Source: a virus
IMG/VR virus record: IMGVR_UViG_3300040770_000156
Location: 1 to 23,879 of that record
Reading direction: 5' to 3' (one strand)
DNA: 23,879 bases
Under the pieces are notes generated by a model. The model saw nothing but the letters and a program-made list of their open reading frames with translations. It did not search any database and was not told where the DNA came from. Both the position numbers and the translations under genes were made by a program. Position 1 is the first letter of the stretch. Each line of letters opens with the position of its first letter. Of this stretch, positions 3,401 to 22,262 are shown piece after piece.

Positions 3401-5642
3401 CGTGTTGATGTCGTTTATGAGCTGGCTCGGCCCTTGGGGTATGGCAGCTGGCGGCGCGGCTATTGCGGCCGTGCTGGGTGGTGCGCTTGTCGGTGGCGGT
3501 GGCGGTGGCGGAGCAGGTTTCAACCTGCAAGAGCGCCAAGATCGCCAGGGCACTGGCACCGTCCTCGGTGACGACAGCGAAAAGTCTGCGTCCATTGCTA
3601 ACGCAATGTCATCGCTGGAAGACAACTCCAACGTCGGTCTGGTTTTGACGACAAACATGTTGTCAGCCTTACGTGGTATTGAGGCTTCCATGCAAGGCTT
3701 GGCCTCTGCTATTTTCAAGGTATCTGGTATGACTACCGGAAAGAACTTTGGAATCTCGGAAGGCATCTCTGGCGGTGGTTTTGGGTCTAGCGTTTTCGGC
3801 GGAAAAAAGACAACGTCTATCACCGACACTGGCCTGAACATCAACGGCACGGCCGCTGACTTCAGCAAGGGTAGTGGGGTGAAGCAGTACGTGGATGTTA
3901 TGACGCAGAAGAGCGGTGGGTGGTTTAAGAAAGACAAGACGTCTAACCAGCGCCAGTACATGGCCGCAAGCGAAGAGATCACGACGACAATTGGTCGAGT
4001 CTTCGACAGCATCAACTCGACAGTCTCTGACGCAGCAGTCTCTCTGGGTGCAAATGGTGACAGCATCAAGGCCGCAATGGCTTCGTATGTCATCAGCACA
4101 GAGGTCAGCTTTAAAGGGTTAGTAGGTAATGAGCTGTCAGAGGCACTCAACGCCGTGTTCTCAGCATCCGCTGACGGCATTGCACGCACTGTGTTCCCTG
4201 GCCTGGAAGCATTTCAAGCTGCTGGTGAAGGTTACTACCAGACGCTGGTGCGTGTGGCTACGGGTACTGAGCAAGCGCAAAACGCCCTGAAGTCCTTTGG
4301 CATCGAGATGGTCGGCCGAGACTCTCTGGTTAACAAGACTGGCGATATCGCTGCTGAACTGGTTCGTCAGAGCATCATGGCTAAGGAAGCTGGAACGACT
4401 ATGGCGGACGTTATGAAAGTAATGGACGGTAGTATGACCGATCTGGTTGCCGGGTACAAGTCTCTGCTGGCTATCCAGGATACAATGCGCGGCCTTGACC
4501 TCGGACTGAACATCTCGCGGGACACCATCCGTGGTGCAGGCGGTATTGCCGAGCTGGAGAGCGCAATCTCGGAGTTCTCAGAAAACTTCTTCACCGACGC
4601 TGAGAGACAGACAGCAAGCTTCTCGAAGCTCGGTGCTGAGTTTGGACGCCTAGGTGTTGTGATGCCTGCAACTAAGGATGCCTTCAGATCTTTGGTTACG
4701 TCTTTGATGAGCGGAAACGCCGAAAGTCAAGAGCTAGCTGGTAGGGTCATGTTGCTTGGCGGTGCGTTTTCGGATGCATTTCAAGCCACAGAAGACTTAC
4801 GCTCTGACGCCATTGACAGCTTGAGCGCTGCCTACGACAAGGAAGCAGAAGCACTGGAGAACATCATCGACAAGATGAAGGGTTTTAGTGAATCTCTCCT
4901 AGCTTTCAAAGGTTCGTTGCTGACAGGCGATCTGTCCACAAAATCTACCGCTGAAAAGTATGCTACAGCTAAGACCACTTATGACGATGTGTCTACCCGC
5001 GCTTTGGCTGGAGATGAGTCGGCAATAGCAGGCTTTGAGAAGGCTGCTTCAGAGATGTTGAAGCTGTCTCAAGGTATTAATGCCAGCGGGGCAGGTTACA
5101 CTGCTGACTACGAGCGCGTGCTTGCTGAGACAGAAACGCTCTACAAGTTCACTACAACCCAAGTCGACGTTGCGACGGAAAGCCTGGACACGCTTAAAGA
5201 GCAAGTCAAGGGTTTGCTGGATATCAACGAGAGCGTGCTGACAGTGACGGAAGCAATTTTCGCCCTGCAATACGCAATGATGGGGGTTGACCCGCTGGCA
5301 GGTGGCGACGGTTCCCAAGCTATCAGCTTGGCTAACGCAACTTTTGACGGCGACATGGCAAGACTGCTCTGGGGTGACCGTTCGGCAACACCTAGCGAAA
5401 ACCGAGAGTATTCTTTTAGTGGAAACACTCCAGCAAACTCTAGCAGTGCATTGACAGAAGAAGTAATCGCACTCCGTAATGAGTTACGGATGTTGCGAGA
5501 AGAGCAGCGCGAACAAACCGCCAACCTCGTTGTCGCCCAATTCCAATCCCAAGAGCTTAACGCTCAGACGGTTGTTGAGGGCCAGCGCGGCGCGATGGAG
5601 GGTGCTGCGTACCTTGAACGAACTAGAACAGGATTTGCATAA
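402..5642 (+). CDS. Tail tape measure protein
   Basis: This 1746-aa protein sets tail length and occupies the tube lumen before DNA ejection. Residues about 145-340 carry the tape-measure N-terminal domain (TIGR02675-like), with the recognisable 'LYDMAQRLRVPLEDAAKLYTRM' type pattern and 'NGAEFNAVAEGAPGI'. Residues about 365-455 are a long hydrophobic stretch with several possible membrane segments, as expected for a protein that enters the host envelope. Long Ala/Lys/Glu-rich helical parts follow, then a glycine run near residue 1030 and a C-terminal coiled coil near 1683-1718. The ATG at 402 is preceded by AAAAGGAA at a good distance. It follows the chaperone gene by 11 bases and its stop abuts the next ATG. 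With the usual rule of about 0.15 nm per residue, the tail would be near 260 nm. No lytic transglycosylase or peptidase domain was recognised within it. Confidence 0.95.
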   Translation: MAANNSALQIEVVSTGIADTVRKLDLLGNAAGRNEAKVKLLTDSLGKLMVAQTTAVSSATAHAASINLIAQAMGMMANYATTTASQVSLLNSQLGTLNATSNNTTNAFTRKSNAGGIVNATIRAMTTAALAYLSINFAKGIVEAADGWKMMQARLKLATGSMEEAKNVQAMLYDMAQRLRVPLEDAAKLYTRMAVPMQRMGQDAQQTANQVEFVSLALKLNGATAAEASSVMLQYSQSVNAGRLNGAEFNAVAEGAPGILRAIEAELKSTGKWSEYGGKTLKQMGSDGEITFELMNRAAQRALPEMRKAFEELPLTVDGAIQRIKNAWFKAMGELGENTDIGSKLAKAIGQLEASIPAIRDALASIFIFLHDNFSMITTVIQVIVAGKFISWLASAALAIPALVTGLMATTAAATGTAGAMGALRIGLTALTGPWGILISLVGTAAVAAWQFFSKEAPKADAVVTSSMRVQTVDRLRLIQQEIDKINERNGVMAVKPPAQYEVTANDREQVALITRINGLKSAQQSMTSKAAKDGAQVTLDMLDTKLKTMQGEQTVLIALKKVNEDAMNKQKGDAVRAGLARKTETKPQEAQRKIDEYNAALAPLGQALTEKEKMAVRIDVLGEKLGAKAPGRDHFKELRTSIAATTAELELNIKAGDKLSASEKLRESLKSGSNVDFRGLSDGQKATVQAEVDKNAALERQIELRDRANKATADASAENERFDKRVMSGTAVINDEILKTQLQTAALTQSKTAVKELLAAEIEADAQAAEAAGNRELEKNYNVARYEAYMAQARALRELAEAKVELGKGQDEKAAMEALDKLLDPKKAFNFGEALGEAFGKAGESIGMMSKALGEYSKDQDKIAAQRQSFMSLTDAKKRSAGMEALDKKEAQSSLRMYGAMASGAKGFFAQHTTAYKVLSGAEKAFRAVELAGTLSNFAEKSGLLSAFTGLFTTAKVTETAIDTTQQGVMLGVHAAAAATDVALTGTTEAAKNTLKIPGVLMSFMSWLGPWGMAAGGAAIAAVLGGALVGGGGGGGAGFNLQERQDRQGTGTVLGDDSEKSASIANAMSSLEDNSNVGLVLTTNMLSALRGIEASMQGLASAIFKVSGMTTGKNFGISEGISGGGFGSSVFGGKKTTSITDTGLNINGTAADFSKGSGVKQYVDVMTQKSGGWFKKDKTSNQRQYMAASEEITTTIGRVFDSINSTVSDAAVSLGANGDSIKAAMASYVISTEVSFKGLVGNELSEALNAVFSASADGIARTVFPGLEAFQAAGEGYYQTLVRVATGTEQAQNALKSFGIEMVGRDSLVNKTGDIAAELVRQSIMAKEAGTTMADVMKVMDGSMTDLVAGYKSLLAIQDTMRGLDLGLNISRDTIRGAGGIAELESAISEFSENFFTDAERQTASFSKLGAEFGRLGVVMPATKDAFRSLVTSLMSGNAESQELAGRVMLLGGAFSDAFQATEDLRSDAIDSLSAAYDKEAEALENIIDKMKGFSESLLAFKGSLLTGDLSTKSTAEKYATAKTTYDDVSTRALAGDESAIAGFEKAASEMLKLSQGINASGAGYTADYERVLAETETLYKFTTTQVDVATESLDTLKEQVKGLLDINESVLTVTEAIFALQYAMMGVDPLAGGDGSQAISLANATFDGDMARLLWGDRSATPSENREYSFSGNTPANSSSALTEEVIALRNELRMLREEQREQTANLVVAQFQSQELNAQTVVEGQRGAMEGAAYLERTRTGFA

Positions 5643-7142
5643 ATGACCAATGAAGACTTCCTTAAATGGTTGAGAGATCCTGCAGCGATTCGCTGTATTT
5701 TGCTGGAGGTGCGGGTGAAGATAGCCGGGGTGGAAACCACGCGCTATCTTTCTAACCGGGGGTACGTGACTGGCGGGGGCGATGCCCCTGCCAATACAGC
5801 CTACTCAAGCGTCATCTGCGGTGGTGTCAAGTTCACGGAGTCAATCAGCATGGAGGGTAATGCCACCATGTCAATGGGTGATGTGGAGATTGATAACACT
5901 ACAGGGGAGCGTGACTCATGGCTCAACGACTCGTGGAAGAATCGTCAGATCAGTTTGTTTGTAGGAGATGTACGCTGGGTTCGTAGCGAGTTCACCAAGG
6001 TGTTTGAAGGTGTCGTCACTGGCATCGACAGCAAGAGCCGTGGCAAGTTGAACCTGAAGCTCGGCGACAAACTCCAGCGTTTGAATACCCCGGTCACAGA
6101 CGTCAAACTGCTCGGCTCTACGTCCAACAAAGACAAGCTGATTCCGCTGTGTTTTGGGGAATGCCACAACGTATCCCCGCTGCTGGTGGACGGAAACGTC
6201 AACGAGTTTCAGGTGCATAACGGCGCTATTGAGTCGATCATTGAAGTGCGAGACAACGGTGTGCCTGTGGCATTCACGCCGCTCCTGTCTACTGGAAAGT
6301 TCAGGCTACTGAAGCAACCAGTAGGCACGATCACGGCCTCGGTTCAGGGCGCACTATTGACACAACAGCTCGACGGTGCGATAATACCTAGTGGTGTCTA
6401 TTCAAATACCATAGCCAGCATTGCCATCAATCTCGCAACCCTGTACGGGAATAGCATGATGGCTTTGACCATGTCGGACATGGACACCACACTGGTAGCT
6501 TTCAATACGGCCAACACACAACCTGTCGGGCTGTACTTGAGTGACCGTGCCAACCTCCTTGAGACAATCAACAAGCTTGCTTCAAGTGTAGGCGCTCGTG
6601 TCGTTATGACTCGGGGCAACCTTTTGCGGTTTGTCAAGCTGAGTCTCACAGGCTTGCCTGTTGGCACGACAGTCACTTCGACTGACATGGTGGACAAGTC
6701 CCTGGCTATCTCCGATATGCCTGCGATTGTCGCTGGCGTCAAAGTCGGATACTGCAAAAACTACACCGTTCAGTCCAACCTGGAAACAGGTATTCCAGCG
6801 GAGCATATCTCATTGTTCAGCGAAGAGTGGCTCACAACAACCAGAACGGACAGTGTAGCAAAGGCTGAAAACCTGACCTACGTGGAACCAGACCTGCAGG
6901 AGACGCTACTACTGACGGCCGCAACAGCCTTGGCCGAAGCTGATCGTCGACTTGCGATATTCAATACGCAGCGCAAGGTTTTCAGGTACACGGGCTTCGG
7001 CTATCTACTGCTTGAGAATCTCGGAAGCAGCCAGACAATTAAACACCCGCGCTTTGGCCTATCTGCCGGGGCCACGGGTCAGATCGTCTCAATCTCACTT
7101 GATTGGGCGAATCCTTATATCACAATGGAGGTACTCGTGTAA
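5643..7142 (+). CDS. Minor tail protein / tail-tip hub candidate (499 aa)
   Basis: The ATG directly follows the tape-measure stop, with AGGA about ten bases upstream inside the previous gene. The protein has no signal peptide or membrane segment. It is beta-rich, with recurrent short strands and repeated 'GVVTGIDSKSRGKLNLKLGDKL'-style turns. Residues 150-220 hold a distinctive 'IPLCFGECHNVSPLL' motif that I associate with minor tail proteins encoded after the tape measure in siphophages of Pseudomonas-like hosts. The place between tape measure and fibre is where the distal tail protein and hub normally lie. A hub role, closing the tube and anchoring the fibre, is inferred from position only. 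The stop TAA shares one base with the ATG of the fibre gene, so the two are translationally coupled. Confidence 0.7.
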   Translation: MTNEDFLKWLRDPAAIRCILLEVRVKIAGVETTRYLSNRGYVTGGGDAPANTAYSSVICGGVKFTESISMEGNATMSMGDVEIDNTTGERDSWLNDSWKNRQISLFVGDVRWVRSEFTKVFEGVVTGIDSKSRGKLNLKLGDKLQRLNTPVTDVKLLGSTSNKDKLIPLCFGECHNVSPLLVDGNVNEFQVHNGAIESIIEVRDNGVPVAFTPLLSTGKFRLLKQPVGTITASVQGALLTQQLDGAIIPSGVYSNTIASIAINLATLYGNSMMALTMSDMDTTLVAFNTANTQPVGLYLSDRANLLETINKLASSVGARVVMTRGNLLRFVKLSLTGLPVGTTVTSTDMVDKSLAISDMPAIVAGVKVGYCKNYTVQSNLETGIPAEHISLFSEEWLTTTRTDSVAKAENLTYVEPDLQETLLLTAATALAEADRRLAIFNTQRKVFRYTGFGYLLLENLGSSQTIKHPRFGLSAGATGQIVSISLDWANPYITMEVLV

Positions 7143-17009: not shown

Positions 17010-17028
17010 TCTCATTATTGAGACTTTT
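17010..17028 (-). repeat. 19-bp direct repeat, copy A, with hairpin
   Basis: TCTCATTATTGAGACTTTT on the + strand occurs here and again at 23110-23128. Its first 14 bases form a 5-bp stem (TCTCA/TGAGA). In the leftward mRNA the hairpin lies just after the nrdB stop and right before the GAGGAGGG ribosome site of the next gene. Confidence 0.8.
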
Positions 17029-18116
17029 TAGAAATCAAGTTCCTCTGACCCCAAGTCGTCCTTGACGACATTGAGAGCGTAGTTGTTGCCAGCAGCTTCC
17101 TGTTGGGCATTCTGATGCTTATCAATGTCAATCCAGTTCGCCATCCAAGGCAGCGGGTTGTGTGCAATTATAGCATACGGATTGACCAAGCCAAACTCTG
17201 CATAAATAACTTGTGCATTAAACAGCACCCACTCTTTAAGCAGTGTTGGATTCAAGCCAACAATGCTCCGCCCTTGCGAGAACAAGTACAGACCCCACCA
17301 GATCTCTCGTGCGACAACTTCGTCAAGCATAGCCTGCATGTCTGCCAAGCATGCTGCCAGGGCGATCCTGCCACGCTCCGTGCGTAGTTCGATCTTCAGT
17401 GCTTCAAGGTCGAGTGCAGCATGGCAGTCCACTTCGTCGACCATTATTTTCTGGACAGCTTTTCCAATGCTTTGAAAATAGCCCTGCTCCACAATAGCGA
17501 ACGTAGCGGCAAACGATGACATGAACTGCAGTCGCTCAAGGAGGTACAGTGCAAACATACCCTTGAATACCGCGTTGTACGTCTCTTGGTTGTTCTCGAC
17601 TTGCCCCAAAGTGTAAGCCGCACCCAACTTGATCAGGCTGCTAAACGCCTTGTTCATTGTGTCACAGCGCAGAAGAGTTTCCTGGTTCTCCATCACCATC
17701 TTGAACACTTCGCTTGGATCTGGCACACAGGTGCGAACGATTTCTGAGTAGGTTTTGGTGTGGGTCACTTCCATAAGCGTGTTCTCCAGCAGACCCTCCC
17801 AGAACTCGCTGTTAGTGACGAACGGGGCAAAGGCCGGAGCAATCGCCCTAGACGCCAAGCTATCCGCTTCCCACTGGAAGGCAAGGTTCATCAACATGAC
17901 TTGATAAACGCTGCGTGGGCACGACAACAAATCCATGCGGCTCTGGTCATGGTTGAACTCGTCAAACTGCCAGCGGTTGGTGATCTGCTTTCGCGTGATC
18001 TTGTCAATGCTGGGGTAGTTCATGTTGATCGTGTCATGAAGAGCCAGCGGCTGACCCAAGAACAAACTGTAGCGCCCGTCCTTCCAGGCTGTGTTTTCAG
18101 TGTTAAATATTTGCAT
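17028..18116 (-). CDS. nrdB: Ribonucleoside-diphosphate reductase, class Ia beta subunit
   Basis: NrdB holds the di-iron centre and tyrosyl radical that start catalysis in NrdA. I prefer ATG 18116 (362 aa) because AAGGA lies directly before it; an in-frame ATG at 18128 has no ribosome site. With this start the ligands fall near the E. coli numbering: Asp85, Glu116, His119 and radical Tyr123 in 'MEVTHTKTY', then Glu194 in 'LLERLQF', Glu228 and His232. The last pair is spaced E-x3-H (DEVDCH) where E. coli has E-x2-H. A C-terminal Tyr346 and the acidic end 'DDLGSEELDF' fit the radical-transfer Tyr356 and the NrdA-binding tail. It follows nrdA by 52 bases that contain a strong hairpin. Confidence 0.95.
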   Translation of the reverse strand: MQIFNTENTAWKDGRYSLFLGQPLALHDTINMNYPSIDKITRKQITNRWQFDEFNHDQSRMDLLSCPRSVYQVMLMNLAFQWEADSLASRAIAPAFAPFVTNSEFWEGLLENTLMEVTHTKTYSEIVRTCVPDPSEVFKMVMENQETLLRCDTMNKAFSSLIKLGAAYTLGQVENNQETYNAVFKGMFALYLLERLQFMSSFAATFAIVEQGYFQSIGKAVQKIMVDEVDCHAALDLEALKIELRTERGRIALAACLADMQAMLDEVVAREIWWGLYLFSQGRSIVGLNPTLLKEWVLFNAQVIYAEFGLVNPYAIIAHNPLPWMANWIDIDKHQNAQQEAAGNNYALNVVKDDLGSEELDF

Positions 18117-18141
18117 TAATTCCTTCATTTCAAACCATGAG

Positions 18142-18163
18142 AGGAAGGGCTTCCGCCCTCCCC
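18142..18163 (-). promoter_or_regulatory. GNRA-tetraloop hairpin between nrdA and nrdB
   Basis: In the leftward RNA, GGGGAGGGC pairs with GCCCUUCCU around a GGAA (GNRA) loop, giving nine pairs including two G-U wobbles. On the other strand those two pairs would be A-C mismatches, so the fold favours the nrd mRNA. It lies after the nrdA stop and about 26 bases before the nrdB start; no U-tract follows. Confidence 0.75.
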
Positions 18164-22213: not shown

Positions 22214-22235
22214 GACGCAGCAACAATGCTGCGTC
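22214..22235 (-). promoter_or_regulatory. Perfect 9-bp hairpin before the 83-aa gene
   Basis: GACGCAGCA (22214-22222) and TGCTGCGTC (22227-22235) are exact reverse complements with a 4-base loop. In the leftward RNA no U-tract follows; instead an AAGGAA ribosome site comes 13 bases later. On the + side GTTTTC follows, so it might also weakly stop antisense transcription. Confidence 0.7.
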
Positions 22236-22244
22236 GTTTTCGCT

Positions 22245-22262
22245 ATTGTAACACGAGTTACA
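22245..22262 (-). promoter_or_regulatory. Candidate extended -10 promoter with overlapping dyad
   Basis: On the leftward strand TGTTACAAT gives an extended -10 (TACAAT at 22250-22245). It overlaps a 6-bp dyad TGTAAC-ACGA-GTTACA at 22247-22262 that could be an operator. No good -35 lies at the right distance. Transcription would start near 22238, so the next hairpin would be at the 5' end of the RNA. Confidence 0.35.

Follow-up and report, generated by a model that had tools for sequence, protein, structure and literature searches.

The stretch of DNA analysed here (the window) is a 23,879-base virus record, IMGVR_UViG_3300040770_000156, whose + strand carries a tape measure gene. In a leftward cluster, a metallophosphoesterase gene, nrdA and nrdB were identified by PHROG profile search (Table 1). 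The nrdA stop codon is a TAA at 18171-18169 on the − strand. The start of nrdB was probably the ATG at 18116 and not 18128, because residue 1 of homologues aligns there and the Shine-Dalgarno (SD) sequence AAGGAA (18125-18120) lies ahead of it. From the nrdA stop to this likely start there is a same-strand gap of 52 nt, from which we infer co-transcription of the two genes. The gap contains a hairpin, with 5 nt between the nrdA stop codon and its stem and 25 nt between the stem and the nrdB start.

Table 1. Coordinates of the nrd genes and of the RNA features at two junctions of the leftward cluster
Feature	Position	Strand	Support
Second intercistronic hairpin, after the metallophosphoesterase gene: 9 bp, UUGU loop	22214..22235	−	
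nrdA, class Ia ribonucleotide reductase large subunit, 747 aa	18169..20412	−	phrog_84, E 2.4e-236
RNA hairpin at the nrdA 3′ end: 9 bp, GGAA loop, no U-tract	18142..18163	−	
Probable nrdB SD sequence AAGGAA, outside the hairpin	18120..18125	−	mean unpaired 0.67
nrdB, small subunit, start revised (probable ATG at 18116)	17028..18116	−	phrog_86, E 8.9e-87

The relatives L004 and L005 also kept a hairpin at the place of the second hairpin of the cluster (22214..22235). An extended −10-like sequence, TGTTACAAT, was seen after the metallophosphoesterase stop and just ahead of this 9-bp hairpin (22214-22260), and at the same place in L004 (TGTTACAAT) and L005 (TGCTATAAT); a simple −35/−10 scan of the window did not list it. 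The element and the hairpin might perhaps represent a promoter of the nrd genes followed by a structured 5′ leader.

In the leftward RNA, positions 18163-18142 read GGGGAGGGC-GGAA-GCCCUUCCU, with a fold energy of −17.1 kcal/mol as against −11.0 kcal/mol on the opposite strand. The initial annotation had described nine pairs, two of them G-U, a GGAA loop and no U-tract, and all of this was confirmed from sequence and folding. The hairpin itself is real, with a pairing probability of at least 0.82 for every stem base in a local-context fold, and its tail (CUCAUGGU) holds 3 U in 8 and no run. Taken alone, the fold was only moderately unusual, with z-scores of −2.39 over 26 nt (5/200 shuffles as good) and −1.87 over 64 nt (12/200). 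It ranked third among perfect-stem minus-strand hairpins of the window, the two stronger ones both lying inside ORFs. The core RGGGCNNNNGCCCY occurred once in the window against 0.06 expected, and a stem of −12 kcal/mol or below at offset 3–7 was found in 3/1500 random window 60-mers (0–6 per 1500 per locus in 11 loci). Rfam searches of the window and of six relatives gave no match at gathering score. Given the modest z-scores, a single copy proves little and the relatives decide.

In three relatives, hairpins whose stems differ from that of the window were located 4–7 nt past the nrdA stop: GGAGGGGC-GAAA-GCCCUUCC in L005 (NrdA 88%), GGAGGGGC-GAAA-GCCCUUUC in L006 (NrdA 77-79%) and GGAGGGGC-AUUC-GCCCCUCC in L004 (NrdA 78-80%, NrdB 86%). 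L044 (67%) carried GCGGGGC-GAAA-GCCCCGC. At 60-70% identity, L073 carried AAAGGGC-UUCG-GCCCUUU, L012 a hairpin of 9 bp closed by a loop of 5 nt, L010 a canonical terminator (GGGAGCC-UUCG-GGCUCCC then U7) and L042 a UUCG hairpin (GGGGC-UUCG-GCCCC) about 75 nt past the stop. The more distant phages Kashira (L098) and ChuuTotoro (L099), both Serratia phages, as well as P018-4, 2L372D and T4, had hairpins 5–31 nt past the nrdA stop. The stop-adjacent hairpins of relatives thus showed altered stems, double compensatory changes and swapped loops. GNRA, which the initial annotation had put forward, was not the conserved feature, and a GNRA signal for protein or receptor docking was dropped because the loops included GGAA, GAAA, AUUC, UUCG, UAAU and longer ones. 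Three of the nearer relatives (L045, L065 and L071) had no gap and no hairpin, nrdB starting 8–19 nt past the stop, and the nrdA ends of J2-1 and L035 had no hairpin there, indicating that the hairpin is dispensable. Among bacterial NrdA relatives (six Ignatzschineria loci, judged by eye and excluded from the counts), a weaker GGCGAAGU-type inverted repeat was seen roughly 10 nt past the stop in L089, L091 and L094 and further on in L092; L090 and L093 had no clear inverted repeat past the nrdA stop.

A survey for perfect-stem hairpins of −8 kcal/mol or below within 60 nt covered 35 phage nrdA ends from 34 loci; in all, 4645 phage records have an NrdA match. Such hairpins were found at 28 of these 35 ends, which are not independent by descent, and 17 of the 28 started 3–7 nt past the stop. 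Scored as misses were L034, which has a long stem with internal loops (though −17.5 kcal/mol in RNAfold and followed by a U-run), and L042, because of its distance from the stop. Dropped before the survey were the near-duplicates L018-L021, L023, L027, L029, L030, L032, L033, L038 and L039, all with a hairpin in the RNAfold output, as well as L025 (its match does not reach the end of NrdA), second copies of contigs already included and the fragment L040.

Covariation was scored on 12 loop-centred sequences, a set that leans towards structure, being few, partly related and picked and centred by their own hairpins: 78.7% of cells were paired, and the score was 0.295 versus 0.187 for shuffled sequences, with 3/500 shuffles reaching it and the true register beating all slid registers. 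The check in relatives proposed by the initial annotation was thereby passed, the position being conserved and six of nine pairs changed on both sides. For the six nearest homologues, two pairs changed on both sides (a count reached by 155/500 shuffles) and the covariation score was reached by 24/500 shuffles, so the close group alone was only suggestive.

Eight related contigs (about 296 kb) contained the core palindrome 10 times; when these sites were assigned to loci by hand, 7 of the 10 were nrdA ends. In 14 loci of the phage group, 13 of 49 same-strand gaps of 25–150 nt had a hairpin of −8 kcal/mol or below, compared with 34/600 random 50-mers and 6/106 gaps under 10 nt. Hairpins therefore mark intercistronic gaps generally, yet nrdA ends gave 6 of the 13, a lower bound because the greedy ORF caller omitted the nrdA junctions of L004, L012 and L044. 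A chance inverted repeat or a DNA-level element (a recombination or homing site) would agree with z-scores of only −1.9 to −2.4 and with an HNH endonuclease gene lying just after the hairpin in L073, but not with the conserved position, the compensatory stem changes, stable loops in the sense strand only and the rarity of matches in random stretches, and we consider it highly improbable. Selection on RNA structure is well supported by these sequence comparisons.

The initial annotation had taken the two G-U pairs, A-C in the opposite RNA, as the trace of selection on the leftward transcript. Selection on that transcript was supported, but the asymmetry was a weak proof of it: 13 hairpins, not independent, gave 7 G-U to 1 A-C, and 8 of the 13 were without any G-U. 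Loop identity is the stronger strand signal, since 14/18 of the 4-nt loops read in the nrd sense were GNRA (7/18) or UUCG (7/18), and 0/18 were either in the antisense.

A position between nrdA and nrdB, as first annotated, held for the window and also for L004, L006 and L012, in all of which nrdB is the next gene. The hairpin persisted, however, before other genes: a lipoprotein-like ORF in L005 (a label read from its N-terminus), a small ORF in L044, another, larger ORF in L010 and, directly after nrdA and hairpin in L073, an HNH gene (HNH_3 and AP2 domains, 6335-7037). The distance to the nrdA stop was nearly fixed and the downstream gene variable, indicating that the element belongs to the 3′ end of nrdA and not to the nrdA/nrdB pair. 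This bears on 5′ protection of nrdB, in which an endonuclease would cut upstream of the hairpin and a structured 5′ end would shield the downstream segment, as in papBA. Such an arrangement is known in E. coli operons, according to excerpts of PMC5927463, but here only 5 nt separate the nrdA stop codon from the stem and the spacing is fixed to nrdA (3–7 nt in 17/28) whichever gene follows, making this very improbable.

L073 has two nrdA C-termini. The earlier one ends nrdA proper and has a UUCG hairpin after it; the later, displaced one (VDLLIEEPEPVCDSCSL) continues the HNH frame and carries a GAAA hairpin of its own behind it. On the simplest reading, the mobile HNH gene would have arrived with a replacement nrdA end and hairpin by a homing-type insertion.

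Other interruptions of the nrd genes were observed. Group I introns (RF00028, above gathering) split nrdA at about codon 427, presumably the NLC active-site region, in L073 (5088-5299) and L065 (4257-4485), and in L006 the same codon was interrupted by 970 nt that matched no Rfam family. Further insertions were located near nrdA codon 270 in L073 (3792-4573, two sub-gathering group I matches) and near nrdB codon 117 in L065 (5841-6814). The nrdA of L004 lay in two overlapping frames at about 5074-5101, from a frameshift or an assembly error, and those of J2-1 (L102) and P018-4 (L103), each annotated as two CDS about 270–350 nt apart, are possibly interrupted genes too.

The nrdB SD sequence lay outside the hairpin and was mostly free when the hairpin was formed, so that the hairpin did not sequester it. 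Translation could still be controlled if a ribosome on the nrdA stop opened the 5′ arm and the pyrimidine-rich 3′ arm then paired with the SD. When the 5′ arm was blocked in model folding, SD openness fell from 0.67 to 0.39 in the window, 0.81 to 0.47 in L004, 0.79 to 0.24 in L005 and 0.82 to 0.37 in L012, but was nearly flat in L006 (0.73 to 0.66) and rose in L044 (0.65 to 0.70). Over 20 junctions, six fell by at least 0.2, three rose by at least 0.2 and the others changed less. The ribosome-gated switch thus fitted part of the close group and failed as a rule; with the hairpin also kept where nrdB is not next, we judge such control improbable.

As for termination, the window hairpin provides the GC-rich stem-loop of an intrinsic terminator in the transcript, but not a U-tract directly after the stem, and a terminator scan omitted it. 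It might be a weak terminator or attenuator that halts a fraction of RNA polymerases past nrdA, so that nrdA transcript exceeds nrdB transcript; the U-tract would then have been lost from the window copy. The same slot is a textbook terminator with U7 in L010, and U-rich tails follow the hairpin in L014, L016, L013, L028 and L076; these U-tracts favour termination as an original role. In T4, about 30% of transcripts stop at a terminator in mobE, which lies between nrdA and nrdB, according to excerpts of PMC2988022, and J03968 annotates a stem_loop (2964-2985) 31 nt past nrdA. The window tail has no U-run, however, nor do L004, L044, L073, L098 and L099, and a ribosome trailing RNA polymerase would mask a stem 5 nt past the stop (excerpts of PMC7858274). 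Masking would be escaped if transcription runs ahead of translation, and a short stop-to-stem distance is taken in the same excerpts as a sign of uncoupled transcription. Overall, we find weak termination or attenuation a possible but doubtful account of the window hairpin.

With confidence just above even, we propose that the hairpin belongs, as a stem-loop at the nrdA 3′ end, with the malE/puf "decay terminators" and can be exchanged in evolution for weak intrinsic terminators. Consistent with a 3′-protective stem-loop, a stable stem lies directly downstream of nrdA with nrdB on the same strand, and compensatory change was found in the 12-sequence alignment, though only suggestively in the six nearest homologues. 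In this view the stem-loop would close the nrdA cistron on its 3′ side, within a polycistronic nrd mRNA transcribed leftward. When nrdB or downstream RNA is cut, or decays from its 3′ side, 3′-5′ exonucleases would be blocked by the stem next to the nrdA stop, most likely as a post-transcriptional action; the nrdA message would then outlive the downstream message, which may affect the subunit ratio. The intercistronic stem of malE blocks such exonucleases and spares the upstream gene, and more are described in the E. coli decay survey, which has the puf stem-loop in its reference list (excerpts of PMC5927463). Lacking a U-tract, the window hairpin should terminate poorly alone, and with ribosomes trailing RNA polymerase, a stem so near the stop (5 nt) would be unlikely to terminate efficiently; the established exonuclease-blocking stems and the absence of a U-run therefore favour decay protection for the window copy. 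RNase III processing looks unlikely for a 9-bp stem.

Since relatives fill the slot with bare hairpins, canonical intrinsic terminators and forms in between, the selected outcome was probably "more nrdA than downstream message", which could be reached via decay protection in the window and via partial termination elsewhere. The stem-loop may thus tune nrdA over downstream genes, and the roles suggested in the initial annotation, protecting the RNA and setting the nrdA:nrdB ratio, are retained as suggestions.

More tentatively, and on the unlikely side in our estimate, a hairpin 3–7 nt past the nrdA stop may be a recurrent, sequence-independent control module of class Ia ribonucleotide reductase operons in unrelated tailed phages. 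If so, phages would swap stem, loop and U-tract yet keep the distance to the stop, mobile HNH genes would land downstream with a fresh nrdA end and hairpin, a different structure (a REP-like array) would fill the same spot in E. coli, and the level of NrdA over NrdB would generally be set in the RNA at this junction. Class Ia reductase depends on both NrdA and NrdB, whose genes are clustered in phages. Because it is tied to the nrdA stop in many phages, the structure offers one place where subunit dosage can be measured with a simple reporter, and the relatives offer a comparison of one slot varying between terminator and bare hairpin.

Elements of this kind are already known, and what is of interest here is the recurrence of one at a set distance from the nrdA stop; titles and abstract starts of open-licence PMC literature gave no description of a conserved hairpin at phage nrdA ends, a weak negative. 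Like the malE-malF and puf stem-loops (excerpts of PMC5927463), the window hairpin follows at once on the first of two co-directional genes as a stable stem and, in this copy, has no U-tract; it differs in being a single short phage hairpin whose effect on decay is a prediction. It resembles the T4 mobE terminator, proposed to balance NrdB with NrdA, since both are stem-loops found a short way past nrdA among phage nrd genes. The T4 stem, however, is 31 nt from the stop and within the ORF of a homing endonuclease; it has a U-tract, and its partial termination was measured (excerpts of PMC2988022; J03968). In E. coli K-12 as well, the nrdA-nrdB junction folds strongly immediately past the nrdA stop (252 nt from the stop into nrdB, −118.4 kcal/mol, z −6.46), with a sequence unrelated to that of the window. 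This fold looks like a tandem REP/BIME array. Between T4 genes, too, there are C(UUCG)G hairpins that combine a short GC stem with an extra-stable tetraloop; C(UUCG)G recurs in several relatives described here, and the window has C(GGAA)G.
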